From the NCBI RefSeq assembly GCF_014284305.1, contig NZ_JACOFW010000013.1, positions 1-64,000 of the forward strand: a stretch of 64,000 nt of DNA, read 5' to 3'. Below are positions 9,047 to 36,144 of the stretch, one piece after another. Position 1 is the first letter of the stretch. Each line of letters opens with the position of its first letter. The translations under genes were made by a program, and so were the position numbers. The notes beneath the pieces are model-generated. The model made no database searches. It had not been told where the DNA came from and saw nothing but the letters and a program-made list of their open reading frames with translations. Source of the DNA: Affinundibacterium seohonense (GTDB lineage Bacteria; Pseudomonadota; Gammaproteobacteria; Burkholderiales; Burkholderiaceae_D).

Positions 9047-9050
9047 AATG

Positions 9051-9078
9051 TACCGATTGGTTAATTAACCGAATGGTT
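9051..9078 (-). promoter_or_regulatory. Predicted ArsR operator, two AACC-N4-GGTT-type sites
   Basis: Directly upstream of the ArsR start codon (9046) lie TACCGATTGGTTA (9051-9063) and AACCGAATGGTT (9067-9078), two similar inverted-repeat units about 15 bases apart centre to centre. The join makes a perfect GGTTAATTAACC palindrome at 9059-9070. The position between start codon and promoter suits autorepression. Binding is inferred. Confidence 0.6.
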
Positions 9079-10726: not shown

Positions 10727-10816
10727 CCATGCAGGGCGGGTGCAACCCGCGCGGTATATCTGTCGATCAAGTTTGCACATAGTTCAGGCGGCGCGGATTC
10801 CACCCGCCCTACATGG
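10727..10816. repeat. 90-bp palindromic repeat, copy A
   Basis: Ends are near-perfect inverted repeats: CCATGCAGGGCGGGTG (10727-10742) against CACCCGCCCTACATGG (10801-10816), 15 of 16 bases complementary. The centre contains GTCGATCAA and TTTGCACATAG. It matches copy C (15136-15225) at 73 of 90 positions and copy B (14222-14311) at about 60 of 90 by hand count. Size and end structure resemble a small non-autonomous palindromic element (MITE/REP-like). Confidence 0.75.
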
Positions 10817-10910
10817 CGTTGAAGATTGGATGAAGTTGAGCAAACATACAGTCAATTTTAACGATGTTCGCCCATTTAATTGTTTTTGATTTGCAGTTGG
10901 CGTCAAACTT

Positions 10911-17814: not shown

Positions 17815-20634
17815 TCACCCCAACTTAGCAAAAGACTCCTGCATCTTGCTCAAAGTCGCAGAGAAGCCCGCTACGCGTTCTTTCTCTTGTTCGACAACCG
17901 CTGCAGGCGCACGTGCCACAAAACTTTCGTTGCTGAGTTTGGCTTGTGCTTTATTGATTTCGGCTTCGAGTTTTGCCATTTCTTTCGAGAGGCGTTCGCG
18001 TTCTGCGGCGACGTCGATTTCTACTTTTAACATCAGCTTGGTTTCACCGACGATGGAGACGGGTGCTGGTGAGTCGGGTAAAACATCGACAATCTGCACT
18101 TCAGACAATTTCGCCAAGGCTGCCATGTAAGGTGCGTAGCTTTCCATGCGGGCTTTGTCGGCAGCGTTCGCTGGTTGCAATAACAGTGGTACGCGGACTG
18201 CTGGTGATAATTGCATTTCACCGCGCAAGTTACGGCATGCATCGATGGCGGCTTTGAGGCCTGTCATCCAGTGTTCTGCTGCTTCGTCTATCGCTTCTGC
18301 ATTTACCAATGGGTAGGCTTGCATCATGATGGAATCGCCCGCTGGGTTCAGCGTTTTGCCTGCCAATGGTGCTACTGTTTGCCACAAGGCTTCTGTGACG
18401 AAAGGAATGACTGGGTGTGCCATGCGCAGCGTGACTTCTAACACGCGTAACAAAGTACGACGCGTTGCACGTTGCTGCGCTGGCGTACCTTGTTGTACTT
18501 GCACCTTTGCTACTTCCAAATACCAATCGCAGTATTCATCCCAAACGAATTTGTAGATGGCGGAGGCGATATTGTCGAAGCGGTAGTCGGCAAAGCCTTT
18601 TTCTAGCTCTGCTTCTGTACGTTGCAAAGTGGAGATGATCCATTTGTCAGCTTGTGAATAATCGAGATCATTGTCTGTTGCTGTACCTGTGAAACCGCAA
18701 TCCTGACCTTCGGTGTTCATCAATACAAAGCGCGTCGCATTCCACAATTTGTTGCAGAAATTACGATAGCCATCGCAGCGACCTAAGTCGAAATTGATGT
18801 TGCGACCTAAGGATGCATAGCTCGCCATTGTGAAGCGCAAAGCATCTGTACCGTAAGCAGGAATGCCATCAGCGAATTCTTTGCGCGTGGCTTTGTCGAT
18901 GCTCGCCGCTTGTTTTGGGTTCATCAAGCCGACAGTGCGTTTTGCCGCGAGTTCGTCAACCGTGATACCGTCGATCAAGTCGATAGGATCAAGTGTATTG
19001 CCTTTGGATTTGGACATTTTTTGGCCGCTAGAATCGCGCACCAAGCCGTGTACATAGACGGTATGGAATGGCACTTTGCCAGTGAAGTGCGCGGTCATCA
19101 TGACCATACGCGCTACCCAGAAGAAGATGATATCAAAGCCAGTGACCAATACAGAGGATGGCAAGAACAGTTTGCTATCAACCGTCAACTCCGGCCAGCC
19201 CATGGTGGAGAATGGAACCAAGGCAGAAGAGAACCAAGTATCGAGCACGTCATTGTCGCGGTTCAATGCGCCTGTGTAACCAGCCGCTGCTGCTTTTGCT
19301 TTGGCTTCGGCTTCATCGCGTGCAACGAAGATTTCACCATTGTCGCCATACCATGCTGGGATTTGATGACCCCACCACAATTGGCGTGAGATACACCAAT
19401 CTTGAATATTGTTCAGCCATTGGTTGTATGTCGTGCTCCAGTTTTCTGGTACGAATTTCACTTCACCATTCGCCACTTTTTCTAGTGCGACTTCGGCAAT
19501 CGATTTGCCTGGGAAGTGGGTGCCCTCTGGCGCAGCTTTGCTCATCGCCATGAACCATTGATCGGTCAACATCGGTTCGATGACGACGTTAGTACGGTCG
19601 CCACGTGGCACCATCAATTTGTGTGGCTTTACAGACTCGAGCAAACCTTGTGCATCGAGGTCAGCGACCATTTGTTTACGTGCTACGAATCTATCCATGC
19701 CTTGGTAAACAGCTGGGCCGTTTTCATTGATCTTGGCATCTAAAGTTAAGATGCTGATCAATGCCAAATTGTGACGTTGGCCAACTGCGTAATCGTTGAA
19801 ATCATGTGCTGGTGTAATCTTCACGCAGCCTGTACCGAACTCTTTGTCGACATAGCTATCGGCGATGACGGGAATTTCACGATCCGTCAAAGGCAATTTG
19901 AGCATCTTGCCAACGAAAGCGGTGTAGCGTTCGTCAGTTGGATCTACCGCAACGGCGACGTCACCGAGCAATGTTTCTGGGCGTGTGGTTGCTACTGTGA
20001 GGTGGCCGCTTCCATCCGCGAATGGATAGCGGATATGCCACATTGAGCCGTCTTCTTCTTCCGATACGACTTCCAAATCAGATACGGCGGTGCCCAATAC
20101 TGGGTCCCAGTTCACCAAACGTTTGCCGCGATAGATCAAACCTTGTTCTACTAAACGGACGAAGACTTCGGTAACCACTTTGGAGCGTTCTGCATCCATT
20201 GTGAAGTATTCACGATTCCAATCAGCAGAAGCACCCATACGGCGCATTTGGCCAGTGATGGTGGAGCCGGATTTTTCTTTCCACTCCCAGACTTTTTCTA
20301 AGAACTTTTCACGGCCTAAATCGTGGCGAGAAATCTTTTGTGCATCGAGCTGGCGTTCCACCACGATTTGCGTTGCGATACCAGCGTGATCCGTGCCTGG
20401 TACCCATGCCGTGTTATGGCCACGCATACGGTAGTAACGTGTCAAACCATCCATAATCGTTTGGTTGAAGGCATGACCCATGTGCAAAGTGCCAGTGACG
20501 TTGGGTGGTGGCAGTTGAATACTGAACGATGGTTTGGACTCATCGGTCGTGGCGGTGAAGTATCCGCGCTTTTCCCATTCGGTGCGCCAAAACGATTCAA
20601 TATTGGCGGGTTCAAAAGATTTGGCTAATTCCAT
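17815..20634 (-). CDS. valS: Valine-tRNA ligase
   Basis: Charges tRNA-Val with valine and edits misactivated threonine; cytoplasmic class I synthetase. The 939-residue length is normal. The HIGH-type signature is [13 protein letters not shown] (near residue 45), the KMSKS loop is QKMSKSKGN (near residue 550), and the C-terminus (about 870-939) is the coiled-coil tRNA-binding arm with [20 protein letters not shown]. The start at 20634 gives [13 protein letters not shown], the usual N-terminus. Its last 80 codons and terminator exist as a diverged second copy 1.7 kb downstream, so this tail may come from a recombination event. Confidence 0.98.
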
Positions 20635-21107
20635 GATGTGTATACAAACTTTAAGTTAGTGAGAACCCATGCAGAATTGATCTTGCGTAAGTTCGATAAG
20701 TTGATTGGCGAAACCTTTGATTATAAATGAGTGCGATGTATTACTTAAAATATTCAAGGTGTTTTTTCTCATTTGGTGCTATGTGGATCGTTAAATGATG
20801 CGTTTGTGCTTGATGTTCGTTCAGAATGATGACACACGTGGTGCTGTGTATGGCACTGAAGTTCGCTTCGTCGATGGCTTCAAAATTAAGTAATGTTTTT
20901 ATAAAAAAAGAGCTTTAATTGTTTGTGACGAGTGAGAATCTGTTGATTCTGTAGCTTATTTGGACGTGATGCAAAAAAAAGCAAAGATGCTTTTAGGAAA
21001 GTGCTAGCATATCTAAGTCTGCACAAAACAAAGAAAAAAGAAGCGCAAGGCACCGGATCTTGGTAACAAGCAGTCAGGCGAGGCAATGTGAACTAGGTGA
21101 TGAATAC
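20635..21107. other. Divergent gap between valS and the GGDEF gene
   Basis: No gene or repeat is supported. Promoters for valS (minus) and the diguanylate cyclase (plus) must lie here. An AGGTGA ribosome-binding site just before 21108 supports the chosen start of the plus-strand gene. Confidence 0.4.
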
Positions 21108-23252
21108 ATGAGACACTTTTTATATCGATCTGCTCTACCAAGCGTTGAGAAATTGAGTGTTTATGATGATGGAAAATTCTACTTTTTGTTGCAAAAAATT
21201 GTATTGCTAGTACTTTTAAGTCTCTCTTTCCCCAGCCTGGCAGATGACAAGTTGATCATGTCCCAGCTAGATGCGATTCAATCTCTTTCCGATAGAAATA
21301 ACGAAGAAGGCTTACAACAACTTCTTGAGTTCAAAAAGAATTTACCCGCGGATACGTCACCAGCAATCCGATTAGAAGTGTTGTCGGTGTTAGGTGGCTT
21401 GTATTTTGATGCAGGTAACCGAAAACTTAGCACGCAAACGCTGGAAGAATTTGATCAGCTCGCTAAGCAAATGCAAGATCAGGATGCCTTGCTGTATCTG
21501 GAAATATTTGAAACCTATAGTATTTTCGAAAAATCAGGTTATGCCGTCGCGGTGGCTCACCTCGAAAAATTAGGTAATGCCGTTGCGACATCGAAAAATA
21601 CGAATGTGCAATTTCGATATCTTGCGACTTTGGGCGCGTTCTATAGCAGTAATCTCAAATTTGACCTTGCATTGAAGCAGTACTTGGATATGCTCAAATT
21701 ATCCGAGCAATTGCCTCGTCGGCAATTGCAAGCAAAGATGGCGACATGGAGTCAAATATCTGGTCTTTATTTGCAAATGAAAGATCCGCAAAAAGCACTG
21801 TCAGCGACCACTGAGGCTTTGGCAATTTCTTCTGCGAGCTTGGCACCAAAATCCTTCATCGATATCTCTGTATCACGAGGTGTTGCACTCAGCACCTTAA
21901 AGCGGAATGACGAGGCATTGAAGGAGTATGAAAACGCATTAAAAACTGCCAAAGTGGAGAAATTACCTTATTGGGCAGCATTGGCGCTGTTTAATATAGC
22001 AGATCAATATTTGATAAAAAAGGACTATAAGCGTGCCGAGTCCTATGCTCGTGAAGCGATGGCAAGATCCGAAGGATTGGAAGACCAGTGGGGCATCGCC
22101 AGTGCGCGTGTCAACTTGGGTTTAGCCTTGGGTTATCAGGGTAAACTCAAACAAGGCGGTGATCTGGTCAAAGAAAGTATCGCCTTCTTTGAAAAGGCAA
22201 ACGCCAAATCGGATGTGGAAACCATCATAGGCGAACTATCGCAGATGTATGAAGCGGCTGGTTTGTACAAAGAAGCACTAGAGCAGGTGCGGGCACAACA
22301 AAAATTGAGCGATGAAATTTTTCAGTCAGATCGCGCTAAGTCAGTTGCTGCTTTGCAGGAAGGATTTGATGCGGAGCAGAGAAAACGTCAGATTGAAATT
22401 TTAGCCAAAGACAATGCACTCAAAGATGCCGATATCAAAAATCACCGCTTGCAGCAAATGGTGGCTTTATTGGCGTCGCTTGTCGGGGTATTAGCTGGAT
22501 GTTTTATCTATACCCAGTACCGCCGCAGCAAAAAACTCAACGAGCAATTGAAGGAAGTGAATCTACAATTAGAGTTTCATGCTATTCGCGATGCGTTGAC
22601 AGGGCTGCACAATCGACGTTCATTCATCAGTCTGATGGCCAATCGAAATCAACGGGTAGAAACCGAGCGGCGTGAGGGTAGTTATCGTAATCCTGATTGT
22701 ATGATTTTGATGGATATCGATCACTTCAAAAATATCAATGACACCTGGGGGCACGCCGTCGGTGACGTTGTCTTAAAAGAAGTTGCTGCCCGTCTAAAGG
22801 CCGTGGTGCGTGATGACGACATGGTGATGCGCTGGGGTGGTGAAGAATTCTTGATTTACTCGCCAAAATCCAACCCCGAACAAATTACTAGTCTGGTTGA
22901 TCGGGTGTTGCGTACCATTGGTGACACTGCGTTTGCTCATGGTAACTTGGCAATTCCAGTGACAGTCACTGCAGGGTTTATTGCGGTGCCTTTTTCTGAT
23001 GTTCCTGAAGAGTTCTGTGATTGGGAGCGTGCCTTGCAAATCGCGGATATGGCGCTTTATCTGGGAAAAACACATGGCAGAAATCGTGCCTATGGCCTAT
23101 CTCGTTTATTAGTTCCGCATGAGTTGGCGCTTCCTATTTTGACGCATGATCTGGCTGAGGCCATCACGCAAAATATGGTGGAAATGATCGAGGTACTGGG
23201 ACCGGAACAAGCACATCCTCATCAATCAACGCCACTGAGTGAATTGAAATAA
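21108..23252 (+). CDS. TPR-containing diguanylate cyclase (GGDEF)
   Basis: The 714-residue protein should make cyclic di-GMP. It has an N-terminal hydrophobic export segment (about residues 30-48, IVLLVLLSLSFPSLAD), a periplasmic region of tetratricopeptide-like helices (about 50-430), a membrane helix (about 460-480, MVALLASLVGVLAGCFIY), and a C-terminal GGDEF domain (about 500-670). Active-site sequence is GGEEF, and RDDD five residues before it fits the RxxD inhibitory site. DALTGLHNRRSF begins the domain. The ATG at 21108 is preferred over a TTG at 21060 because of its AGGTGA site. The signal sensed by the TPR part is unknown. Confidence 0.9.
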   Translation: MRHFLYRSALPSVEKLSVYDDGKFYFLLQKIVLLVLLSLSFPSLADDKLIMSQLDAIQSLSDRNNEEGLQQLLEFKKNLPADTSPAIRLEVLSVLGGLYFDAGNRKLSTQTLEEFDQLAKQMQDQDALLYLEIFETYSIFEKSGYAVAVAHLEKLGNAVATSKNTNVQFRYLATLGAFYSSNLKFDLALKQYLDMLKLSEQLPRRQLQAKMATWSQISGLYLQMKDPQKALSATTEALAISSASLAPKSFIDISVSRGVALSTLKRNDEALKEYENALKTAKVEKLPYWAALALFNIADQYLIKKDYKRAESYAREAMARSEGLEDQWGIASARVNLGLALGYQGKLKQGGDLVKESIAFFEKANAKSDVETIIGELSQMYEAAGLYKEALEQVRAQQKLSDEIFQSDRAKSVAALQEGFDAEQRKRQIEILAKDNALKDADIKNHRLQQMVALLASLVGVLAGCFIYTQYRRSKKLNEQLKEVNLQLEFHAIRDALTGLHNRRSFISLMANRNQRVETERREGSYRNPDCMILMDIDHFKNINDTWGHAVGDVVLKEVAARLKAVVRDDDMVMRWGGEEFLIYSPKSNPEQITSLVDRVLRTIGDTAFAHGNLAIPVTVTAGFIAVPFSDVPEEFCDWERALQIADMALYLGKTHGRNRAYGLSRLLVPHELALPILTHDLAEAITQNMVEMIEVLGPEQAHPHQSTPLSELK

Positions 23253-23260
23253 AAGCTTAT

Positions 23261-23290
23261 TTGTCGTTTTATTTAAAACACGGCTATAAT
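23261..23290 (+). promoter_or_regulatory. Promoter of the thi operon
   Basis: TTGTCG (23261-23266) and a perfect TATAAT (23285-23290) are separated by 18 bases, about 45 bases before the riboswitch aptamer. This places transcription start near 23297. Confidence 0.65.
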
Positions 23291-23335
23291 GCGCCGACAA
23301 TTTTTGTTATTGTAATTTTGTAGTTAATTTTAAAA

Positions 23336-23421
23336 ACGCTAGGGGTCCTGACAAGCTTGTATCTGTCGGGTGAGAAATACCCTTGAACCTGATCTGGATA
23401 ATGCCAGCGAAGGGAAGCAGC
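23336..23421 (+). promoter_or_regulatory. TPP riboswitch (THI element)
   Basis: The conserved aptamer pieces are present in order: AGGGGTCC at the start, GGGTGAGAAATACCC (23378-23392), and then TTGAACCTGATCTGGATAAT and GCCAGCGAAGGGAAG. These match the TPP-binding core of thiamine pyrophosphate riboswitches. It precedes thiC by about 95 bases and should reduce expression of the operon when TPP is plentiful. Confidence 0.95.
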
Positions 23422-23464
23422 CAAAGCCGTGATGCCACCTCAGTTAGGGTGTGCTGTCGCCTAA

Positions 23465-25429
<1,965 letters not shown>

Positions 25430-25437
25430 GTGCAGCG

Positions 25438-25638
25438 ATGGAAATTCAACTCAATGGTGAGCTACGTTCTTTGCCGCCTGAAACCGATTTGCATAGTTTG
25501 ATTGCGGAACTGCAGTTAGGCAATCAAGCAATTGCGGTCGCTGTCAATCGTCAAGTGATACGCCGTACGCAGTGGCAGCAACACATGCTTCAGGCGGGCG
25601 ATCAGGTTGATGTGGTGCGGGCGATCGGTGGTGGATGA
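25438..25638 (+). CDS. thiS: Thiamine biosynthesis sulfur carrier protein
   Basis: A 66-residue ubiquitin-like protein ending in the required Gly-Gly (VDVVRAIGGG), whose C-terminus is adenylated and then thiocarboxylated to donate sulfur for thiazole formation. It begins MEIQLNGE, starts 8 bases after thiC and is in the usual thiC-thiS-thiG order. No thiF adenylyltransferase gene is in this window, so activation must be done by an enzyme encoded elsewhere. Confidence 0.95.
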   Translation: MEIQLNGELRSLPPETDLHSLIAELQLGNQAIAVAVNRQVIRRTQWQQHMLQAGDQVDVVRAIGGG

Positions 25639-25652
25639 ATTTTAAATATTTC

Positions 25653-25719
25653 GCCGCAGAGGCGCAGAGTACGCAGAGTTTTTCAATGATTTGCTCTGCG
25701 ATCTCTGCGCCTCTGCGGC
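25653..25719. repeat. 26-base inverted repeat between thiS and thiG
   Basis: Arms at 25653-25678 (starting GCCGCAGAGGCGCAGAG) and 25694-25719 are complementary at 24 of 26 positions, with a 15-base loop. It lies inside the operon where only a short spacer is usual and forms a strong RNA hairpin. Sequences of this type (repeated CGCAGAG units) occur as dispersed intergenic repeats in many Proteobacteria, from memory. Confidence 0.75.
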
Positions 25720-25764
25720 TCAAGACTTTGACTGCGATTCTTTTGAAAAACACGGAAGAAAAAA

Positions 25765-26562
25765 ATGACAACACAAACAAAACCAAACAGCCTGACCATA
25801 GCAGGCAAGACCTATAACTCGCGTCTCTTAGTCGGTAGTGGCAAATATAAAGACCTAGACCAAACCAAACTGGCTACCGAAGCCAGCGGTGCAGAAATTA
25901 TCACCGTCGCCATCCGGCGTGTGAACATAGGTCAAGATCCCAACGCACCGAGTTTGCTTGACGTGGTACCGATGTCCAAATATACAATCTTGCCCAACAC
26001 AGCGGGTTGCTACAACGCCAAAGACGCGATTTACACCTTGCAATTAGGCCGCGAATTACTTGGGGGGCACAAATTGTGCAAGCTTGAAGTTTTGGGTGAC
26101 GAAAAAACATTGTTCCCCAATATGCCCGAGACTTTGGAGGCCGCCAAAGTCTTGGTCAAAGATGGCTTTGATGTGATGGTGTATTGCAGCGATGATCCGA
26201 TTCAGGCTCGTATGTTGGAAGACATAGGCTGTGTCGCCGTAATGCCGCTCGCATCTTTGATTGGTTCTGGCATGGGAATTTTGAATCCGTGGAATCTTTC
26301 GCTCATTATTGAGCAAGCGAATGTGCCTATCATTGTTGATGCAGGCGTTGGCACCGCTTCGGATGCAGCGATCGCGATGGAACTTGGTTGCGATGGTGTT
26401 TTGATGAATACTGCAATCGCTGATGCACGCGACCCAATCCGTATGGCACGAGCAATGAGCTTAGCCGTTGAGGCAGGACGTGAAGCATTTTTGGCAGGGC
26501 GGATTCCTAAAAAATTTGCAGCGTCGCCTTCATCACCGATTGCAGGACGTGTGACCGAATGA
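25765..26562 (+). CDS. thiG: Thiazole synthase
   Basis: Builds the thiazole phosphate ring from deoxyxylulose phosphate, dehydroglycine and ThiS thiocarboxylate. The 265-residue TIM-barrel protein shows [13 protein letters not shown] near the start, the Schiff-base lysine region [15 protein letters not shown] (near residue 110), and the phosphate-binding end [20 protein letters not shown]. The ATG follows GGAAGAAAAA. Its stop overlaps the thiD start by four bases. The dehydroglycine source is unclear because neither thiO nor thiH is next to it. Confidence 0.97.
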
Positions 26563-27392
26563 ACGAACGTCATCAACGCCCCTGTGTACTAGTCTTCGCG
26601 GGACATGATCCCAGTGGCGGTGCTGGCATACAAGCCGACATTGAAGCGATTGCAGCGCAGGGCGCGCATGCAGTGCCTATCATCACGGCGCTGACGGTGC
26701 AAGACAATAATCGGGTGCATGCGGTTTATCCGGTGTCGACAACAATTTTGCGTGAGCAATTTGATGCTGTGTTCGCGCAGTTACCGATTGCGGCGATAAA
26801 ATTGGGCATCGTTGGCTCCTACGACAATGCCATCTTGATTGCCGACTGTATTTCCAAAATACGGCAAAGGCAACCTGATCTTTGTGTGGTGCTAGATCCT
26901 GTTCTCGCCAGTGGGCATGGTGATGCTTTGTCGGTTCAAGATCCTTTGTACGCGTTGCGGCCGGTGTTGGCTTGTGCGACTTTGCTTACACCTAATTTGC
27001 CAGAATTAGCGCGCTTAGTCCCTAATGAGGCTAGTGATAGCAATGAGTATCAGAGAGCCGAAACCCTGTGCCATCAATTTTCGTGCGATGTGCTACTAAA
27101 AGGTGGTCACGCCCATGGCGATGTGGTCAGCAATCATTGGTTCCAGAGGCAGTTTGCACCAACATTATCTATTCAGAAAACGAGTTGGCATTGGCCACGC
27201 TTAGATGGTGAATTTCACGGAAGTGGTTGTACCTTAGCAGCGGCGATTGCAGGACGATTCGCTCTCGGTCATAATGCGCCGCACGCTTTATCACTCGCGC
27301 AAGATTATGTACAACAGTGCTTGCGGAAAGCGTATGCGATTGCACCCGGGCAAGCGATTCCCTCTCGATCATTATTTCAAGGAGCAGTATGA
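26559..27392 (+). CDS. thiD: Hydroxymethylpyrimidine/phosphomethylpyrimidine kinase
   Basis: Phosphorylates HMP and HMP phosphate to HMP pyrophosphate. The 277-residue ribokinase-fold protein has [20 protein letters not shown] at residues 15-34, ITALTVQDN, the [12 protein letters not shown] segment and the ATP/anion-hole motif [16 protein letters not shown] near residue 217. ATG overlaps the thiG stop (ATGA), and its own stop overlaps the thiE start, indicating tight translational coupling. Confidence 0.95.
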
Positions 27393-28027
27393 GGTCTGGT
27401 AAAAATTGGCAGCAAACTTTATGCGGCTTGTATTTGGTCACGCCAGATTGGAATGATACTGGGCGGTTATTGGAGGTGACAGAGGAGGCATTAGCCGCTG
27501 GAGTAAGCCTGCTGCAATACCGACACAAAACCGCGCAAATAGAATTGCGCTATGCACAAGCCAGCGCCTTGCAAAGTCTATGTCAGAAGTATGCAGTGCC
27601 TTTTATTGTGAATGATTTTGTGACTTTGGCATTAGAGCTTAATGCCGATGGCGTGCACGTCGGTGGGCGGGATGTCTCCGTCGCGCAAGCCCGTTCATCG
27701 GTAGGGCCTGACAAAATTGTCGGTGCTTCTTGTTATGGCGATTTGAGTCTGGCGCATTTGGCTCAACTGCAAGGCGCCAGTTATATGGCATTTGGCGGAT
27801 TTTATCCTTCTGCAGTGAAGCAGTACTCTTTCACGACCTGTCCAAGTATTGTGGAAACCGCTAAAGTTGAATTAAGCCTGCCGCAAGTGGTGATTGGCGG
27901 CATGACGGTCGATTTGGCACGACCCTTAGTCGCTCGTGGAGCGGATATGGTGGCGGCAATCAGTAGTGTGTACAACGCAGCTAAGCCAGCACAAGTGGTG
28001 AAAGATTTCATTGCGCTGTTTCGATAG
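27389..28027 (+). CDS. thiE: Thiamine-phosphate synthase
   Basis: Joins HMP pyrophosphate and thiazole phosphate to make thiamine phosphate. The 212-residue TIM-barrel protein shows GLYLVTPD at the start, LLQYRHK (near 45), VNDFVTLALELNADGVHVGG (near 80) and VIGGMTVDLARPLVARGADM near the C-terminus. The ATG at 27389 overlaps the thiD stop by four bases and follows AAGGAGC. The last 17 codons plus 49 downstream bases are repeated with 79% identity after the following two-component system. Confidence 0.95.
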   Translation: MRSGKNWQQTLCGLYLVTPDWNDTGRLLEVTEEALAAGVSLLQYRHKTAQIELRYAQASALQSLCQKYAVPFIVNDFVTLALELNADGVHVGGRDVSVAQARSSVGPDKIVGASCYGDLSLAHLAQLQGASYMAFGGFYPSAVKQYSFTTCPSIVETAKVELSLPQVVIGGMTVDLARPLVARGADMVAAISSVYNAAKPAQVVKDFIALFR

Positions 28028-28076
28028 TTGACTATATCCAAGGCGATAGTTTGTCGTGTAAATTTCTAAAATATGT
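27977..28076 (+). repeat. Direct repeat, upstream copy (thiE 3' end and flank)
   Basis: One hundred bases covering the last 17 codons of thiE and 49 bases beyond. They align without gaps to 30320-30419 at 79 of 100 positions by hand count. The two copies are in the same orientation and 2343 bases apart, bracketing the two-component system. Confidence 0.85.
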
Positions 28077-28149
28077 ACATCAGCAATTGAATGAACTACG
28101 CGCCTTAAAATTAAAACAAATCCACCACATTCCATTCAAATCAGACCTC

Positions 28150-29424
28150 ATGCGAGTAAATGCACCAGTTAAAATCGAGACCGTAGCATCGTCCTCAGCT
28201 ATGGCTGACAAAGACGTTACTGGTATTTGCGCGACCAAACCTGCTCGCTTTGAAAAAACTACCGCGCATGAACCCGCATGGTGGCGTGTGTTTAGCACCG
28301 CCTTTGACGATCTCTGGAATATCGGCGCTCCTCGTCGCCTGCCTTGGTATGCCCACTGGCCCCTAATTTTCCTTATCGGGGCCAGCGTGGGTGCGTCGAT
28401 TGTCCTCCTGTCAGCCCTGTTCAGCGGCAATCTGCTGCGCATGGAGTGGTGGTCGCACAATATAGCTTGGTCGATGCTAACGGGCGTGATTATCATGCTG
28501 TTCTTGGAGGGGGCCTTTAGGGCTTTGAGCCGGATCATCTCGGCTGAGCGACTTTTGCAATGGCGTGAAGGTGTAGGGCGGTCGCGCTGGTTGGCCTATA
28601 TCGGCGTGCCAGCACTGTGTAGCGTATTGGGGCTAATTACGCTGGATATTCTGATGCGTTCAGTGGACGCAGGCAGTTTGGCTAGCCCGCGACTGCCCAG
28701 CTACGGGCTGCTGACTACCTTCCTAGTCAGCGGCATCCTGTTGGCCGGCCTGAGTTGGTGGCGGCTGCGCCTTCAGTTGCAAGCCCACAAGGTTCGTCAG
28801 CAGATGGCCGAGGCGCAGCTGCGTCTTCTGCAAGCCCAAATCGAGCCGCACTTTTTGTTCAACACCTTAGCCAATGTGCAGGGGCTGATTGACTATGAGC
28901 CGGACTTAGCCAAGCGCATGCTTGATGCCTTTACCGACTACCTACGCGCCAGCCTAGTGCAGATGCGCGCCCAGGACGTGAGCTTGGCCGAAGAGCTGGA
29001 TCTAGTGCAAAGTTACTTGATCGTGATGCAATGCCGTATGGGGGAGCGCTTGCGTTGGCAGCTGGACATGCCGGCTGAGTTGCGCACCGCCCGCATTCCA
29101 CCTTTGCTGTTACAGCCCTTGATCGAAAATGCCATCCACCACGGTTTGGAACCGCAGATTGAAGGTGGCTTGCTTGTCCTGCGTGCCCGCATTGTCGATC
29201 AAGGCCTGTGCATTGAGATTGATGACGACGGTATTGGCTTGACCGCCGCGCAGCTGCGCCCCCGTCGAGGCAACGGTGTGGCGCTGAAGAATATTCGGGA
29301 GCGCCTGCGGGCAGCCTATGGCCCCGAAGCTCGCTTGGAATTGCACGCGCGAGCGAACGAACAGGGCACCCGCGTGCGCCTAATCTTGCCGCGACTGTAC
29401 CCACAAGCGACAGCCTCCATTTGA
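28150..29424 (+). CDS. LytS-type sensor histidine kinase
   Basis: From the ATG at 28150 the protein has 424 residues (a later ATG at 28201 is also possible; the TTG at 28051 lies in the repeated thiE flank and is rejected). Four hydrophobic segments are seen in residues about 65-220 (for example WPLIFLIGASVGASIVLLSA). The cytoplasmic part has the His_kinase motif QIEPHFLFNTLANVQ with the phospho-accepting histidine, PLIENAIHHGLEP (N box) and NGVALKNIRERL (G box). It is GC-richer than the surroundings (41 of 60 bases in 29041-29100, against 30 of 60 in thiE at 27541-27600). Stop and the next start overlap (TGATG). Confidence 0.9.
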   Translation: MRVNAPVKIETVASSSAMADKDVTGICATKPARFEKTTAHEPAWWRVFSTAFDDLWNIGAPRRLPWYAHWPLIFLIGASVGASIVLLSALFSGNLLRMEWWSHNIAWSMLTGVIIMLFLEGAFRALSRIISAERLLQWREGVGRSRWLAYIGVPALCSVLGLITLDILMRSVDAGSLASPRLPSYGLLTTFLVSGILLAGLSWWRLRLQLQAHKVRQQMAEAQLRLLQAQIEPHFLFNTLANVQGLIDYEPDLAKRMLDAFTDYLRASLVQMRAQDVSLAEELDLVQSYLIVMQCRMGERLRWQLDMPAELRTARIPPLLLQPLIENAIHHGLEPQIEGGLLVLRARIVDQGLCIEIDDDGIGLTAAQLRPRRGNGVALKNIRERLRAAYGPEARLELHARANEQGTRVRLILPRLYPQATASI

Positions 29425-30278
29425 TGAATCCCGAGATTGAGTTAAACCGAATGAGTACCCACTCCATACCCCGTCCCCGCGCTTTGTTGGCTGATGATGA
29501 ACCCCATCTATTGCGCGTGCTGCAAGACCGATTACACGAACTTTGGCCGGAGCTAGAAATCGTAGCCACAGCACCGCATGGCATCGCGGCGGCTGAGCAG
29601 ATTGAACGCTTGCAGCCAGATATCGCTTTTTTGGATATACAAATGCCCGGCTTGACCGGTCTTGAGGTGGCTCAAGGCATCGAAGGTGCGACCCGCGTTG
29701 TGTTTGTAACGGCCTATGATGAACATGCCTTAAGTGCTTTTGAGCACGAGGCCGTTGACTATGTGCTCAAACCGATTCGCGCGGAACGGCTGCAACTCAC
29801 AGTGGATCGTTTGCGCCGTGTCTTCGCCGACTGTTTCGAAGCCTCTTCGCAAATAGAAGATGAGCCTAGCGCAGTGGTTCCGTCTTTGCCAGATGCTGCA
29901 CAGCTGGCCAAGGTGCTGGCGCAACTGATGCCGCACGCCGCAAGCGCTCAACCCATGTTGCGCCACCTGCGCGCTAGTCGTGGCAACACCACCCACATCA
30001 TTCCAATCGAGGACATTCTTTACCTGCAGTCCGACGAAAAATACACTATGGTCCGCACTGCAGAACATGAGTACCTGATTCGCAGTGGCATCATGGAGTT
30101 GGCCAGTCAACTGGACCCGCAACGCTTTTGGCAGGTGCATCGCGGCACCATGATTAATGTGGATCAGCTGCTATCTACCCGCCGCGATGATAATGCGCGA
30201 CTTTTCTTACAAATGCGGGGGCATGAGCGCGAACTGCCCGTGAGTCGCGCCTATGTCCATCTGTTTAAGGCGATGTAA
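29424..30278 (+). CDS. LytTR-family response regulator
   Basis: A 284-residue regulator with an N-terminal receiver domain (about 12-130): acidic pocket ALLADDEPHLL, phospho-acceptor in FLDIQMPGLTG, and the lysine in DYVLKPIRAERL. The C-terminal LytTR DNA-binding domain (about 180-280) shows THIIPIEDILYLQSDEKYTM and FWQVHRGTMINVDQL. Start overlaps the kinase stop; an alternative ATG is at 29451. LytTR proteins bind paired direct repeats upstream of target genes. Same high GC content as the kinase. Targets unknown. Confidence 0.92.
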   Translation: MNPEIELNRMSTHSIPRPRALLADDEPHLLRVLQDRLHELWPELEIVATAPHGIAAAEQIERLQPDIAFLDIQMPGLTGLEVAQGIEGATRVVFVTAYDEHALSAFEHEAVDYVLKPIRAERLQLTVDRLRRVFADCFEASSQIEDEPSAVVPSLPDAAQLAKVLAQLMPHAASAQPMLRHLRASRGNTTHIIPIEDILYLQSDEKYTMVRTAEHEYLIRSGIMELASQLDPQRFWQVHRGTMINVDQLLSTRRDDNARLFLQMRGHERELPVSRAYVHLFKAM

Positions 30279-30319
30279 CTGCAATCAAAATCTCACTGGA
30301 GACCGATATAAAATTCGGC

Positions 30320-30419
30320 GCAGCTACGCCCCCTCGATTGGTGAAGGACTTCATTGCTCTATTTCAATAATTAAATATATCCAAAGCGATTGAATGTTGT
30401 GTAAATTTCTTAAATGTGT
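30320..30419 (+). pseudogene. Duplicated thiE 3' end and flank (downstream direct repeat)
   Basis: The frame from 30320 reads AATPPRLVKDFIALFQ and stops at TAA 30368-30370, against AAKPAQVVKDFIALFR in the real ThiE end. The similarity continues 49 bases past the stop codon, including the identical 10-base run TGTAAATTTC. Total 79 of 100 identical without gaps. There is no start codon or ribosome-binding site, so this is a remnant left beyond the inserted two-component cassette. Confidence 0.85.
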
Positions 30420-30536
30420 CCTGCTTGCTGCATTCGTGCTGTAAACAACGTGATTGACTTGGCTTTTGAGCTAATTTTAGGAGCTTTATTGTATGATCCA
30501 TACAATGCTAGTCAAAAATTACATTTAGGTTAAGCA

Positions 30537-31412
30537 ATGACATTATCCCCATCCATGGTGGCGGCTCCAAATGCCAGCCGCCGTTTTGTTTTAGAAATGC
30601 GTGGATTTTCAGATGCGGAAAAAAGCATGCTGACTTCTACGTTTCGCCTGACCAGCCGTCGTGAGATGAGTTACGTTGAGGCCGGCGAGGGCGACACGCG
30701 TGCTGATATTTATTTAATTAACGCGGATAATCCAGATGCCATAGACGAATTACGTAAACGTGATATCGGGGCGCCAAACGCGCATTCGCCAGCAGTCGTG
30801 ATAGGCAGAACGCCAGTAGAAACGCCATGGCCTTTCGTCGCCAAGCCGATTCATTGGATGCGCCTTTTCGAAAATCTAGATCAAGAAATGTTACGCGCTC
30901 TGCGTGAGCGTAGCACCCGTGTTGCGGTGAATGATAATTGGGATGGCGCGACTATGCGTCGTTCTAGCGATCAAAAAATAGGCGCTGCACCATTCGCCAT
31001 AGAGCAACCGGCGCGTGAAACGGTCTTAGTTGTGGATGACAGCGCCACCGTAAGAGCCTTTATGCGGATTAAATTGTCCCCATTTCAGTTCGACGTTGAT
31101 TTTGCGGAAACCGGCGAACAAGCCATAGAAAAAGTTATTGCGAAGGCCGATAGCAAAGCTTATAACTGCATTTTCCTCGACATCATGATGCCTGGCATCG
31201 ATGGCTATGAAGTGTGTAAAAAGATTAAATCCAATAGCAAGACAAAGTCGTCGGCAGTGGTAATGTTGACGAGTAAGTCCTCGATTATCGATAAGCTACG
31301 GGCGAATTGGTCGGGCTGCGATGCGTTTTTGAGTAAGCCAGTGTCAGAAGATGATTTGCTCGCGACTATTGCAAAATTTTTACCGAGTGCTCGCGAATCC
31401 GTGAAGATTTAA
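30537..31412 (+). CDS. Response regulator with degenerate N-terminal receiver-like domain
   Basis: The 291-residue protein ends in an intact receiver domain (about 158-285): VLVVDDSATVRAF, phospho-acceptor in FLDIMMPGIDGYEV, threonine in VMLTSKSS and lysine in FLSKPVSE. The first 130 residues look like a second, degenerate receiver: DIYLINADNPDAI in place of the phosphorylation strand and FVAKPIHWMRLFENL retaining the KP ending, but without the acidic pocket. No output domain is present, so it acts through partners. There is no adjacent kinase of its own; the LytTR cassette just upstream appears to be an insertion and not its natural partner. Confidence 0.8.
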   Translation: MTLSPSMVAAPNASRRFVLEMRGFSDAEKSMLTSTFRLTSRREMSYVEAGEGDTRADIYLINADNPDAIDELRKRDIGAPNAHSPAVVIGRTPVETPWPFVAKPIHWMRLFENLDQEMLRALRERSTRVAVNDNWDGATMRRSSDQKIGAAPFAIEQPARETVLVVDDSATVRAFMRIKLSPFQFDVDFAETGEQAIEKVIAKADSKAYNCIFLDIMMPGIDGYEVCKKIKSNSKTKSSAVVMLTSKSSIIDKLRANWSGCDAFLSKPVSEDDLLATIAKFLPSARESVKI

Positions 31413-31755
31413 GAAGCCTAAATGGTCGCTATTCCTTTGCGCTAAAGTTGCGTGCCGATATTTTGAGCTTGTTTCGGCATGCTTTTTTAATCTCTCATTC
31501 CATTTATTGGTCAGGTAATTGCGCATTTGTTTTTCTTGATACCAGAAACTCAAAGCCTTTATTGAAGTAAATCTTAAGCAAAACAAGACCTTAGAAAGGC
31601 TTTCGGGTATAATCTCGCGTTCTGTCCAAAATTTCCTCATCAAGTGCCTATTGTTGTCTCTTGTTTGAATTTTCGACGCTGCATGATCGCTCGAAAAAAG
31701 GTATTTGTGGATTCTTTCTCTCTTAGGTTGGTGCAAATTAATTTGGGGGGTGGGG
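31413..31755. other. Intergenic gap with possible Rieske-gene promoter
   Basis: No gene is supported. A perfect TATAAT at 31608-31613 preceded by GGG could be an extended -10 for the Rieske gene, but a matching -35 is not seen and the leader would be about 140 bases. A very strong GGGGGGTGGGG run lies just before the ATG at 31756. Confidence 0.35.
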
Positions 31756-32871
31756 ATGTCCGATCTGGCTTCTTTGTCTACATTAGCGCGTTCTGACGCG
31801 CAACTTCCGGTTCATGTGTATTTTGATCAAGCCTTGTTAGCACGCGAGATCAAACAGTTATTTCAATCTGGCCCACGCTATGTTGGTCACGAATTGATGG
31901 TTCCTAACGTCGGCGATTATGCGACGCTCGCTTCTGAGAACGAAGGGCGTATGCTGGTGCGCGGCAAAGATGGAATCGAATTACTCTCGAATGTCTGTCG
32001 TCATCGCCAAGCCTTAATGTTCGGCGGCCCTGGCACGACGGGTCGCGGCAATGCAAATCATATTGTTTGTCCTTTACATCGCTGGACTTATGATTTGAAA
32101 GGCGAGTTGATTGGCGCGCCGCATTTCAAAGATACGCCTTGTCTAAATCTGTCACGTACACCTATTCAAAATTGGAACGGTTTGCTGTTTGAACAAAACG
32201 GTTACAACGTGATGGAAAAAATGTCGACCTTGTCCGTGACCAAGGATTTAGATTTCACTGGCTATATGCTCGATCATGTGGAAGTCCATGAATGCGATTA
32301 CAACTGGAAAACTTTTATCGAAGTCTATCTGGAAGATTATCACGTCGAGCCTTTCCATCCTGGCCTTGGTAGCTTCGTCACTTGTGATGATTTGCGCTGG
32401 GAATTCGGTGACGACTACAGCGTGCAAACCGTTGGTGTGCATAAAGGTTTGTTGAAATCCGGTTCAGCAAAATATCAGGCATGGCAAGAGCAGGTCTTGA
32501 AATTCCGTGGTGGTGAGCCGCCGAAATATGGCGCAATCTGGCTGACTTTGTATCCAAACATTATGGTGGAATGGTATCCACATGTGTTGGTGGTATCGAC
32601 GCTATGGCCAACCGCCACCGGTAAGACTAAAAACGTCGTTGAATTTTACTATCCCGAAGAAATCGTGTTATTTGAACGCGAATTTATTGAAGCCGAACGT
32701 GCTGCGTACATGGAAACCTGTATCGAGGATGACGAGATCGGTGCGCGCATGGATGCCGGTCGTAAGATTTTGCTCGATCGTGGCGAGAATGAAGTCGGTC
32801 CTTACCAGTCACCGATGGAAGACGGCATGCAGCACTTTCATGAATGGTATCGACGTAAGATGACGTTCTAA
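31756..32871 (+). CDS. Rieske non-heme iron oxygenase, alpha subunit
   Basis: The 371-residue protein has a Rieske [2Fe-2S] domain (about 40-150) with the ligand pattern CRHR and CPLHRW (Cys-x-His ... Cys-x2-His), and a C-terminal catalytic domain with the mononuclear-iron motif EDYHVEPFHPGL, where two histidines and a later acidic residue bind iron. Such enzymes hydroxylate aromatic or quaternary-amine substrates; no beta subunit or reductase is adjacent, as in the carnitine/choline monooxygenase-like branch. The substrate is unknown. The start at 31756 is chosen for its purine-rich site and normal N-terminus. A terminator follows immediately. Confidence 0.88.
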   Translation: MSDLASLSTLARSDAQLPVHVYFDQALLAREIKQLFQSGPRYVGHELMVPNVGDYATLASENEGRMLVRGKDGIELLSNVCRHRQALMFGGPGTTGRGNANHIVCPLHRWTYDLKGELIGAPHFKDTPCLNLSRTPIQNWNGLLFEQNGYNVMEKMSTLSVTKDLDFTGYMLDHVEVHECDYNWKTFIEVYLEDYHVEPFHPGLGSFVTCDDLRWEFGDDYSVQTVGVHKGLLKSGSAKYQAWQEQVLKFRGGEPPKYGAIWLTLYPNIMVEWYPHVLVVSTLWPTATGKTKNVVEFYYPEEIVLFEREFIEAERAAYMETCIEDDEIGARMDAGRKILLDRGENEVGPYQSPMEDGMQHFHEWYRRKMTF

Positions 32872-32881
32872 GTAATGTAAA

Positions 32882-32913
32882 TATGGGGAAGCAATGCTTC
32901 CCCATACTTTTTT
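32882..32913 (+). terminator. Intrinsic terminator of the Rieske gene
   Basis: TATGGGGAAGC (32882-32892), three-base loop AAT, GCTTCCCCATA (32896-32906), then C and six T residues. Perfect 11-base stem 10 bases after the stop codon. Confidence 0.92.
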
Positions 32914-32949
32914 CTGTTTCGTATTTTGTTGTGAAATCTTAAGAATATT

Positions 32950-33885
32950 ATGCAAGCACTCTGGATGTTGGTCGCCACCTTTTTGTTTTCTCTCATGGGT
33001 GTCTGCGTTAAGCTCGCCTCAGAAACTTACAACACGGCAGAGATCGTCACTTATCGCGGTGCGATTGGTGTGATAGGGATCTATTTACTGATGCGCTGGC
33101 AAAACGGCACATTGCGCAGCTCCATGATTAAAGGTCATGTTTGGCGCGGAATCTTCGGCGTGACGTCTTTATGGTTGTGGTTCTACTCGATTTCAAAACT
33201 CCCCCTGTCCTTGTCAGTCACGCTGAGCTACATGTCTTCGATCTGGGTCGCTGTTATTTTATTCGCGACTTCTTGGTGGAATAATCGAGGCAAAGATGTC
33301 GTGCATCTCCCTCCGCATTTGGTGTGGTCTATCTTATTAGGATTTATCGGCGTCGTGATGTTGCTGCGCCCGACCATCCAGCTTGAACAATTACCGGACA
33401 GTTTGATCGCTCTGTGCTCCGGGTTCATTGCTGCTTTGGCTTACATTCAGGTGCGTCAAATGGGCGTGGCTGGTGAGCCCGAATATCGGGTGGTCTTTTA
33501 TTTCTCGCTGGTCTGCACAGTGATGGGTGTCTTGGGTCAACTTTGGCATGTGAATACCTTCTCAGAATCGCAATTAGCTGCGCATGTGAATCATCAATTA
33601 CTAGACTTTAAAGGGATCGCACTTTTGCTCGGCGTTGGTATCTTTGCCATGATTGCGCAATTAGCGATGACACGTTCGTATCGACTCGGGAATCCCTTAG
33701 TGGCAGCGAATTTACAATACGTGGGCATTGTGTTCACGAGTGCGCTTGATGTCATGATTTGGAAGCTTAATTTGAGCTGGATTAGCTGGCTAGGAATTGC
33801 AGTAATTTTGGCTAGCGGTATGATAGCGTCTTCATTCAATAGTAATACTGGCACCAAGTCAGTGGACACTGATCACGCCAGCTAA
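32950..33885 (+). CDS. EamA-family (DMT superfamily) membrane transporter
   Basis: A 311-residue inner-membrane protein with about ten hydrophobic helices in two EamA repeats (about 1-135 and 145-295). The first starts with ATFLFSLMGVCVKLASE and contains the YRGAIG and WFYSISKLPLSLSVTL segments typical of the drug/metabolite transporter superfamily; the second contains AALAYIQVRQMG and SYRLGNPLVAANLQY. Substrates of this superfamily vary (metabolites, amino acids, S-adenosylmethionine) and cannot be read from sequence. The sulfurtransferase gene follows after 18 bases, so they may be co-transcribed. Confidence 0.85.
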   Translation: MQALWMLVATFLFSLMGVCVKLASETYNTAEIVTYRGAIGVIGIYLLMRWQNGTLRSSMIKGHVWRGIFGVTSLWLWFYSISKLPLSLSVTLSYMSSIWVAVILFATSWWNNRGKDVVHLPPHLVWSILLGFIGVVMLLRPTIQLEQLPDSLIALCSGFIAALAYIQVRQMGVAGEPEYRVVFYFSLVCTVMGVLGQLWHVNTFSESQLAAHVNHQLLDFKGIALLLGVGIFAMIAQLAMTRSYRLGNPLVAANLQYVGIVFTSALDVMIWKLNLSWISWLGIAVILASGMIASSFNSNTGTKSVDTDHAS

Positions 33886-33903
33886 GCCCTCTAAGGAAAA
33901 TTC

Positions 33904-34764
33904 ATGTATGCGACTTTGATTAGTGCACAACAACTCGCAGCGTTAAGCGATAAAACGACGGTCGTGGTTGATTGTCGCCATGACTTGATGGATGGCCAAG
34001 CAGGCAAAAATGCTTATGATGCAGGGCACATTCCGGGTGCCGTGTTTGCCAATTTGGATACCGATTTGTCTGGTAGCAAGCATAATGCTGACGGAGTTTT
34101 TGCTGGCCGTCACCCGCTGCCAAACACTGATGATTTGCTCGCGGTGTTACGCCGCCTTGGAATCAATCAGGATACGCAGGTGATCGCTTACGATGCCCAT
34201 GGTGGGATGTTTGCGGCACGCTTATGGTGGCTGTTGCGCTCGATTGGTCATGCATCTGTAGCGGTGTTAGATGGCGGTATTGCGGCTTGGATTAGTGCGG
34301 GGCAAACGCTGCAAACCGAGGTGGCTAGCCATGTGGTGGGCAATATTCAAGTCAAAGACAGCTTAACGACACAAGTCAATGTGCAAACCGTGTTGCAAAA
34401 TCTGCAGGCGACAGCGGATGTGCAATTACAAGTAATCGATGCGCGTGCGGCTGATCGTTTTCGTGGTGAAAATGAAACCATCGATCCGGTCGGAGGCCAT
34501 ATCCCAGGTGCAAAAAATCGCTTCTTTAAAGATAATTTGCAAGCCGATGGACGTTTTAAATCTGCACAAGAATTGCGTCAAGAATGGCAAGCGTTGTTTA
34601 CTGACCCAACTAAAGCCATCATGCAATGCGGCTCAGGCGTAACTGCTTGCCATAATTTGCTGGCATTGGAAGTTGCTGGTTTAGGTGGTGCCGCTTTATA
34701 TCCAGGATCGTGGAGTGAGTGGTGTTCAGATGCTTCGCGCCCTGTGGCAACTGGCACCGTTTAG
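33904..34764 (+). CDS. sseA: Thiosulfate/3-mercaptopyruvate sulfurtransferase
   Basis: The 286-residue protein has two rhodanese domains (about 8-135 and 165-280). The second holds the catalytic cysteine in MQCGSGVTACHNL; CGSGVTA is the active-site loop typical of 3-mercaptopyruvate sulfurtransferases of the SseA type. DAGHIPGAVF and GGHIPGAKNRFF are the matching structural motifs of the two domains. It moves sulfane sulfur to cyanide or thiols. AAGGAAA lies upstream of the ATG. Convergent with the ZIP gene with eight bases between stops. Confidence 0.9.
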   Translation: MYATLISAQQLAALSDKTTVVVDCRHDLMDGQAGKNAYDAGHIPGAVFANLDTDLSGSKHNADGVFAGRHPLPNTDDLLAVLRRLGINQDTQVIAYDAHGGMFAARLWWLLRSIGHASVAVLDGGIAAWISAGQTLQTEVASHVVGNIQVKDSLTTQVNVQTVLQNLQATADVQLQVIDARAADRFRGENETIDPVGGHIPGAKNRFFKDNLQADGRFKSAQELRQEWQALFTDPTKAIMQCGSGVTACHNLLALEVAGLGGAALYPGSWSEWCSDASRPVATGTV

Positions 34765-34772
34765 TTTTGGGT

Positions 34773-35600
34773 TTAGTGCTGATGCTTGATCATCAACAAG
34801 ACCAGTATCACGCCGCAGCCAACCAAAATAACCTGCGGTATGGTTTCTCTCAAGGTCGCGCGGCGCTGCATTTGTGGCATCAAATCGCTGACGGCGATGT
34901 AGATGAACCCGGACGACGCTAGTACCAAAACATAAGGAATTAAGGAGCTCGCTTTGTCTAGGGTGTAGTAGCCCAATACACCACCTAATACTGACATCAA
35001 GCTACATATTAGGTTGTAAAAATAGGCACGGGTTCGGCTAAATCCTGCATTTAATAAAACGATGAAATCGCCGATTTCTTGTGGAATTTCATGAGCAATA
35101 ATTGCCAGTGCAGTGACTACACCTAGGCCCGGATCTGCTAGAAACGCCGCGGCGATCAGAATCCCGTCGGTGAAGTTATGCATGCCGTCGCCTATCAAAA
35201 TCATCCATCCAGCTTTGCCTGCCTCATGCGCATCATGGCCATGCTCATGGTGGTGACCATCACCCTCGTGGTGATGAGAGTGGCGCAAGATCGCAAATTT
35301 TTCTAACAGGAAAAAAGCCAGTAATCCGCCCAACAAACAGGCAAATAAAGAACGAGGATCCGTACCAGATTCAAATGCACGTGGGAGGGCATGTAGCAAA
35401 GACGTTGACAACATCACACCCACCGAGAAGCTGACCATACGTTCCACTAGCTTCGATAGCAAAGAGAACGAAAAGATGGCAGCAAAACTGATGCTCAACA
35501 CACCAGCAATTGTGGTCGTGAAAATAATGGAAGTCAGGGTGGAATGAATTTTAGGCCTCGGCGCGGGGGGATCTGCAACTATGTTGCAATTAGACCACAA
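34773..35600 (-). CDS. ZIP-family metal transporter
   Basis: A 275-residue inner-membrane protein of the ZIP (zinc/iron permease) family. It has about eight hydrophobic helices, a histidine-rich cytoplasmic loop (HSHHHEGDGHHHEHGHDAHE, about residues 107-127) and the metal-path motifs GDGMHNFTDGILIA (helix 4) and AHEIPQEIGDF (helix 5). It likely imports zinc or other divalent metals. The start is uncertain; 35600 gives a 16-residue polar leader before the first helix. No Zur box was recognised upstream. Confidence 0.9.
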   Translation of the reverse strand: MWSNCNIVADPPAPRPKIHSTLTSIIFTTTIAGVLSISFAAIFSFSLLSKLVERMVSFSVGVMLSTSLLHALPRAFESGTDPRSLFACLLGGLLAFFLLEKFAILRHSHHHEGDGHHHEHGHDAHEAGKAGWMILIGDGMHNFTDGILIAAAFLADPGLGVVTALAIIAHEIPQEIGDFIVLLNAGFSRTRAYFYNLICSLMSVLGGVLGYYTLDKASSLIPYVLVLASSGFIYIAVSDLMPQMQRRATLRETIPQVILVGCGVILVLLMIKHQH

Positions 35601-35664
35601 ATCCCTTGTTTCTGCAATTCAAATTCGGGCGCGGCGCTTGTTGTGACAAACCATGCCGGGTAGA

Positions 35665-36144
35665 TCAGCCTTGTTCTTCTTTGCAATTTTTCATTTTGTC
35701 GGTGACTTTTTTGATCTCTTCTAGACGGTCAGCATCTTCCATGTAGGTCGGCTCACCTTTGGCGTTTTCACCGGTAATGAGCGGCAATCCATTGTTCAAT
35801 GTCGCCAGTCGTTTTTTATTTTGGTAGCATTTTTCTTCATCCTGACGCACTTTGTCACGCGCCAAGTCTTCCTGTTCCTTGCGTAGCTTTTGTCTTTCCT
35901 TGAATTCGATTTCTTTTGCCCATAAAGCTTTTTCAGGAGGTTTATTGGTAGCGGCTTGTCCATGACCACTCGCAACCGGCGTGATCTCGACTTCTTTGAC
36001 TATGGTGCTGCCGAGAGGACAGCGACTTGCCATAATTTTACGACCTTGCGCATCTTTACATTCAAAGATTTGAGCTGGCGTGAGTTGTGTCATCCCTAAT
36101 AAAATGGCAGCTATAGTAAGATTTTTTTTATACATGAGGTACAT
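35665..36144 (-). CDS. DUF4124 domain-containing exported protein
   Basis: From the ATG at 36144 the protein has 159 residues: a signal peptide (MYLMYKKNLTIAAILLGMTQ, cleavage after TPA), a DUF4124-type start (QIFECKDAQGRKIMASRCPL, with two cysteines that probably pair), and a charged helical C-terminal half rich in K, E and R. The function of DUF4124 proteins is unknown; they are periplasmic and common in Burkholderiales. A longer frame reaching 36378 is rejected as it overlaps the promoter region of the divergent gene. Confidence 0.8.
   Translation of the reverse strand: MYLMYKKNLTIAAILLGMTQLTPAQIFECKDAQGRKIMASRCPLGSTIVKEVEITPVASGHGQAATNKPPEKALWAKEIEFKERQKLRKEQEDLARDKVRQDEEKCYQNKKRLATLNNGLPLITGENAKGEPTYMEDADRLEEIKKVTDKMKNCKEEQG

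Follow-up and report, generated by a model that had tools for sequence, protein, structure and literature searches.

In the 64,000-nucleotide stretch of the Affinundibacterium seohonense genome that we analysed (contig NZ_JACOFW010000013.1, positions 1 to 64,000; hereafter the window), the thiamine phosphate synthase gene thiE is followed by a LytS/AlgZ-type sensor histidine kinase gene and a LytTR response regulator gene, and then by a second response regulator gene beginning at 30537. The kinase and LytTR genes, which we refer to as the cassette, are bracketed by two diverged direct copies of the 3′ end of thiE and the sequence behind it. A preliminary description, drawn from the letters of the window, read this arrangement as an insertion, made at the 3′ end of thiE, which had left the gene whole. 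Here we describe the repeat, the same junction in related genomes, and the make-up of the cassette, and we weigh the routes by which it may have arrived.

The repeat and the genes it brackets

A mechanical repeat search returned a direct repeat of 101 bases with 79% identity (Table 1); the preliminary description had delimited a block of 100 bases with 79 identical positions, and we obtained the same count for that version. The similarity is far beyond chance: the best ungapped score of copy 1 against copy 2 was 59, compared with a maximum of 18 in 100 first-order Markov resamplings of the partner sequence, and the loss of significance that the preliminary description had allowed for did not occur. 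The edges of the repeat are sharp because identity beyond the block falls to 3–8 of 20 positions per step in the six steps examined; the left edge lies at CGCAGCTA. A whole-genome search at an E value of 0.001 returned copies 1 and 2 and no third match in the window genome (G000; 4.87 Mb in 163 contigs, 99% complete). Copy 1 serves as the working tail of thiE; copy 2, read by eye in the thiE frame, still ends ...LVKDFIALFQ-stop, in keeping with the earlier account of an in-frame tail with a stop codon.

The plus-strand genes between the copies are the kinase and the LytTR regulator, as had been described, and no transposase or integrase domain was found among the open reading frames (ORFs) scanned there. 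Their His_kinase (PF06580), HATPase, Response_reg and LytTR domains scored 83.5, 32.6, 68.1 and 78.9 bits, respectively, all over the curated cut-offs, and the pair thus has all the domains and the adjacent gene order of other LytS/AlgZ-type kinase and LytTR systems; unlike other such kinases, the window protein has an N-terminus that carries a truncated, HD-GYP-derived DUF3391 piece, and it is set behind thiE. The kinase frame is open from 27985, with alternative starts at ATG 28150 and ATG 28201, and an upstream in-frame ATG of the LytTR regulator is possible at 29424, where the kinase stop overlaps it. Both genes look constrained at the protein level: in comparisons with three homologues each, the proportion of nonsynonymous differences (pN) was 0.11–0.14 against a proportion of synonymous differences (pS) of 0.46–0.65 for the kinase, and pN was 0.09–0.13 against a pS of 0.60–0.72 for the regulator.

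The thiE–regulator junction in related genomes

We searched 43 genomes of the genus, the window genome included, and found thiE in 40 and the 30537 regulator gene in 23 (E 1e-40). The two genes are adjacent in 10 of these 23, namely the window genome and nine others; in the remaining 13 they are apart, on separate contigs, or thiE was not found. By match coordinates the gap between them is approximately 166–313 bp and lacks the cassette in all nine, compared with 2509 bp in the window, so that the uninterrupted junctions the preliminary description had suggested looking for do exist; five relatives that were aligned carry a single thiE tail each. Because the junction in relatives is short and without the cassette, the segment between the copies is an insertion, as the preliminary description had it.

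As adjacency was decided from gap length itself, independent evidence comes from the search for the kinase. At E 1e-70 or better, a relative of the kinase is present in two of the 43 genomes, the window genome itself and Undibacterium macrobrachii (G002), where it sits at another locus; the prospect, raised earlier, that all relatives carry the pair behind thiE is not borne out, with 41 of the 42 other genomes lacking such a kinase at this threshold. In the search of 36 genomes, only distant paralogues (E 3e-53 or weaker) were found besides these two; a search of seven genomes gave none, although it lacked its own positive control, the slightly longer query having found both G000 and G002 among the 36. 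Of 399 genomes of the order, only the window genome itself gave a match at E 1e-70, a weak negative given that at most four candidates were scored per genome in the matches shown.

Copy 2 is the old junction: it runs through native spacer containing CTTTATTGTATGAT into the 30537 regulator gene, whose product shares 82–87% amino acid identity with its counterparts in G030, G023, G032, G002 and G061. The CTTTATTGTATGAT element could be aligned in G030, G023 and G061 and is present in a variant form in G032 and G002. The duplicated block therefore preserves the upstream spacer of the downstream regulator as well as the thiE tail, a point that goes beyond the preliminary description. Separately, a motif, TGTTGTGTAAATTTCTCAAAT, at 28052-28072 and 30395-30415 recurs in the thiE–regulator spacers of several members of the genus; within the window it occurs, at up to three mismatches, only in copies 1 and 2. 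A conserved small ORF in the spacer was considered and set aside, the frame being open by eye for only 7–18 codons in copy 2, G030 and G023.

Table 1. Positions of the features discussed, in window coordinates.
Feature	Position	Strand	Evidence or remark
TPP (thiamine pyrophosphate) riboswitch upstream of thiC	23331..23432	+	Rfam RF00059, 61.5 bits (gathering score 54.3)
thiE, for thiamine phosphate synthase; final gene in the thi run	27389..28027	+	TIGR00693, 171.3 bits (cut-off 145.1); PF02581
Repeat copy 1	27976..28076	+	Functional thiE tail and first 49 bp of thiE–regulator spacer
Possible kinase translation start	28040..28053	+	AAGG 28040-28043, TTG codon 28051; read from the sequence
LytS/AlgZ-type sensor histidine kinase	28051..29424	+	PF06580 and PF02518; 457 aa from TTG 28051
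HD-GYP gene N-terminal remnant (DUF3391 and linker, codons ~40-104)	28081..28257	+	In-frame fusion to kinase; borders approximate
LytTR response regulator	29451..30278	+	PF00072 and PF04397
40 bp between cassette and copy 2	30279..30318	+	BLASTN similarity to L003, L004 and L005 ends with the regulator gene
Repeat copy 2	30319..30419	+	thiE tail, displaced, with the start of the original spacer; continues into native spacer
Rest of native spacer	30420..30536	+	Contains conserved CTTTATTGTATGAT
Native response regulator gene	30537..31412	+	PF00072; direct neighbour of thiE in nearest relatives

Make-up and relatives of the cassette

Judged by its similarities, the cassette is a composite in which a Paucibacter-like kinase/LytTR pair is fused to a low-GC piece of an HD-GYP gene. 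From approximately 28256 onward, the kinase and regulator share 79.6% DNA identity with a Paucibacter locus (L003) and 77.1% with a Burkholderiales metagenome-assembled genome, PBB2 (L004). Upstream of this point, 28078-28266 corresponds to residues 40-104 in an HD-GYP protein that carries HD and DUF3391 domains (E 1.1e-6), and the DNA at 28084-28148 is 77% identical to the HD-GYP gene of G030. This also qualifies the earlier statement that the cassette is GC-richer than thiE: the statement holds for the kinase (0.567) and the LytTR regulator (0.545) against thiE (0.499) and the window (0.469), and their third-position GC (GC3) of 0.688 and 0.578 contrasts with 0.451–0.494 for thiC, thiG, thiD, thiE and the downstream regulator, but it fails for the opening ~180 bases (28081-28257), which have a GC3 of 0.39 and are similar to an HD-GYP gene, unlike the Paucibacter relatives of the kinase.

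The U. macrobrachii cassette (L005) is fused in the same way and has its DUF3391 start complete (PF11871, E 8.3e-14, 52.7 bits), and by eye the point between HD-GYP linker and kinase is common to both (ARFEKTTAHEP in the window, HFEKNTAHD in L005). The complete start is absent from the window kinase, which begins at about codon 40 and gave no PF11871 match at E 0.001, and the window fusion is truncated where the thiE repeat ends. Four-point sums on nonsynonymous divergence (dN) were lowest, at 0.248, for window and L005 against L003 and L004, compared with 0.278 and 0.287 for the other pairings. We read the fusion as having come first, in some Undibacterium, the window copy then losing ~40 codons from its start at the junction with thiE. 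To this extent the analysis goes further than the preliminary description, in that the kinase is a truncated fusion with an HD-GYP piece and its arrival does not seem to need a foreign thiE tail. Among the titles and opening lines of abstracts listed in a literature search, those on DUF3391 with HD-GYP included, none describes the window locus or a DUF3391-LytS fusion. In L005 the fused kinase gene spans 5899-7320; in the HD-GYP proteins that we encountered, DUF3391 stands at the N-terminus.

The G002 cassette carries an HD-GYP piece that is nearer to the HD-GYP gene of G030 (75% identity) than to that of G002 itself (69%), so the G002 fusion was probably not made from the gene that G002 now carries. 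At the site of the G002 cassette, G032 (90–92% identical to G002 there) holds a different ORF of ~200 codons, so that the cassette was either acquired by G002 or, in G032, replaced; it occurs sporadically. The occurrence of the cassette at two different loci in two species would fit a cryptic transposing element that makes a very long duplication of its target site, but we regard this as highly improbable: besides the lack of a transposase among the ORFs scanned, no inverted pair of at least 20 bp links the two cassette ends and no repeat was found flanking the G002 cassette. Direct target repeats of ~100 bp are also beyond the usual range, which counts further against such an element.

Among the matches listed, HD-GYP genes of the remnant's type occur in 24 of the 43 genomes (at least 52% identity to a 70-residue query, the match to the G002 cassette excluded). 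None was found in the window genome, whose best matches reach 40% identity to the short query and 36% to the full protein, and at the syntenic locus on its contig C79 both the HD-GYP gene and its downstream PAS-kinase neighbour are gone. A scar at ~49848-50269 of C79 (L126, G000:C79:46000-55000) marks the place where G030 and G002 carry these two genes, and by eye their degenerate ends seem to remain there. We considered whether the cassette is simply the window genome's own lost HD-GYP gene, moved to thiE, and rejected this, since the same fusion occurs in G002, which keeps an HD-GYP gene.

Two further observations concern the relatives of the pair. A DUF2306 membrane-protein gene, possibly an ancestral partner or target, follows it in L003 (8276-8941) and L004 (8044-8766), and L004 has a second, diverged LytS/LytTR pair (8941-10955) a short distance downstream, beyond its DUF2306 gene. 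A plasmid as carrier of the kinase was considered and rejected, as 72,556 records yielded only two Cupriavidus matches (E 1e-40), both below 60% identity.

Routes of insertion and expression of the kinase

The explanation that we favour, and consider probable, is that a composite Paucibacter-like cassette, already fused to an Undibacterium HD-GYP piece, was inserted into the thiE–regulator junction in the window lineage and duplicated a 101-bp target. A kinase/LytTR pair of Paucibacter-like origin would have been joined to a portion of an HD-GYP gene from Undibacterium, and the fused cassette would then have entered the junction; duplication of the target would have placed a copy on either side, leaving the last codons of thiE upstream and the leader of the next gene downstream, so that neither neighbour was harmed. 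We infer this direction of transfer, as well as an insertion by single crossover or by repair with template switching, in either case without dedicated enzymes; by our reasoning, template switching during repair would leave the same picture as a crossover.

There is some precedent for such an event. In Escherichia coli lacZ conjugation, one study describes single-crossover insertion of a plasmid that likewise left the insert between direct partial copies of the target (109–950 bp in the sequenced clones) with no transposase (PMC3240628). That plasmid carried cloned homology, however, whereas for the window any source molecule is hypothetical, its copies are 79% identical, and the mechanism is our reconstruction. 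Tandem duplications made by transformation in pneumococcus are only loosely comparable, being ~100–900 kb (PMC3784515).

An origin of both copies within the window lineage, followed by divergence, is moderately supported. In a tree, copy 1 and copy 2 come out as sisters (support 92/89); six informative sites across four rows join the copies, against one and one for the alternatives; and the grouping of copy 2 with G030 and G023 (p 0.0069) or with G023 (p 0.004) was rejected. Because the copies group together, duplication in the lineage is favoured over an imported tail, that is, a scenario in which a donor Undibacterium already had the order thiE-kinase-regulator, which entered by homologous recombination in thiE and illegitimate joining at the other end, the recipient's own tail being copy 2. 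We consider this scenario rather unlikely, although the copies are about as distant from each other (79 of 100 identical) as either is from G030 (78 and 79 of 100), and 7 of the 12 differences between them in the coding part fall at third positions. It would amount to homology-facilitated illegitimate recombination, which is documented in the study cited above and likewise brings in foreign genes with a homologous joint at one end and an illegitimate joint at the other; it was predicted there to give deletions (PMC3240628) and would leave a donor-type tail, whereas the two copies in the window appear to have arisen in a single lineage. Besides the tree, for which two of the three groupings tested between copy 2 and sister species were rejected, a V to L replacement in the tail of copy 2 speaks against import: by eye, none of the 30 ThiE tails listed, copy 1 included, has L at that position.

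A remnant of an integrative element, such as a prophage or island, that targeted the 3′ end of a gene with its own replacement tail and has since lost its integrase, appears improbable. Elements of this kind are familiar from icd of E. coli, at the 3′ end of which e14 and phage 21 integrate, bringing a replacement tail, and the anatomy of the window fits: a functional gene with one tail, a diverged, displaced tail opposite, and a sharp left edge. Yet only two signalling genes and 40 bp lie between the copies, the three antisense ORFs there had no Pfam match (E 0.01), and, unlike in icd-type elements, no integrase or element genes were found in the segment. No tRNA gene lies within 20000-36000, the U. 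macrobrachii cassette is at an unrelated spot with no flanking repeat found there, and the copies group with each other.

Several points weigh against the explanation that we favour. The grouping of copy 2 with G030 was not rejected (p 0.063), as an imported tail would allow; two of the six sites that join the copies are at the extreme 3′ edge of the block, where the alignment with relatives is loose; and the branch joining the copies was not starred by the tree tool. The tree has 120 columns and one long row (G061), its alternative groupings were not fixed beforehand, and a donor from a sister lineage, if close, would yield an identical tree. With the copies 21% diverged, no microhomology is readable at the junction, and no second cassette copy that could have served as template was found in the window genome, other matches being distant paralogues. 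The window kinase is closer to L003 (80% amino acid identity) than to L005 (77%), the most diverged of the window, L003, L004 and L005 sequences, and taken alone this ranking does not suggest a fused ancestor common to the window and L005. Changes unique to copy 1 number two coding and five spacer, and those unique to copy 2 four coding and no spacer, which is at most a hint that the copies decayed in complementary parts and that selection may afterwards have preserved the end of thiE in copy 1 while preserving the spacer in copy 2; the Fisher p value is 0.061 in the strict set and 0.086 in a wider, hand-polarised set (3/8 versus 8/3), with coding and spacer classes picked after the sites had been seen. 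Lastly, the expression of the kinase involves two predicted steps, read-through from the thiamine operon and translation from TTG 28051.

Read-through from the thiC–thiE unit is plausible: a TPP riboswitch precedes thiC, no plus-strand terminator-like site was listed within 27724-29684 in a simple consensus scan, and the candidate start of the kinase is close behind thiE, 23 bp away and in the same direction. The kinase is probably translated from this TTG; an A to G change at 28042 is found only in copy 1 among the four rows. No RNA structure was found at the thiE/kinase junction (z 0.08), and the removal of an in-frame stop from the copy 1 leader was ruled out, the TGA of copy 2 being itself derived (TGC in G030 and G023). 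Of the upstream genes, thiC and thiE were named from NCBIfam models over their cut-offs, the thiD domain model scored under its cut-off (177.6 versus 204.95), and thiG, for which no model was listed, was named by position and our own reading. Between thiC and thiG, 25642-25742 is a palindromic repeat element resembling miniature inverted-repeat transposable elements (MITE) or repetitive extragenic palindromes (REP); a 165-bp query around it matched the genome 52 times, in many cases on both strands of a single place, and the element gave weak microRNA matches in Rfam below the gathering score.

One may postulate, tentatively, that the insertion brought the foreign pair under the thiamine riboswitch: the spacer of copy 1 would have become the leader of the headless kinase while its thiE codons were kept, copy 2 would have kept the old spacer while its codons decayed, and LytTR output would follow thiamine status. 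Although the locus is not a new kind of system and represents a well-preserved, otherwise ordinary gene acquisition, it shows in legible form how, through duplication of the target itself, a crowded bacterial operon can take up genes with both neighbours left intact, and it preserves three joins within a short distance, those of the kinase donor, the HD-GYP fusion and the capture at thiE. Riboswitch capture, if true, would be a quick route to giving a signalling pair a new metabolic input.

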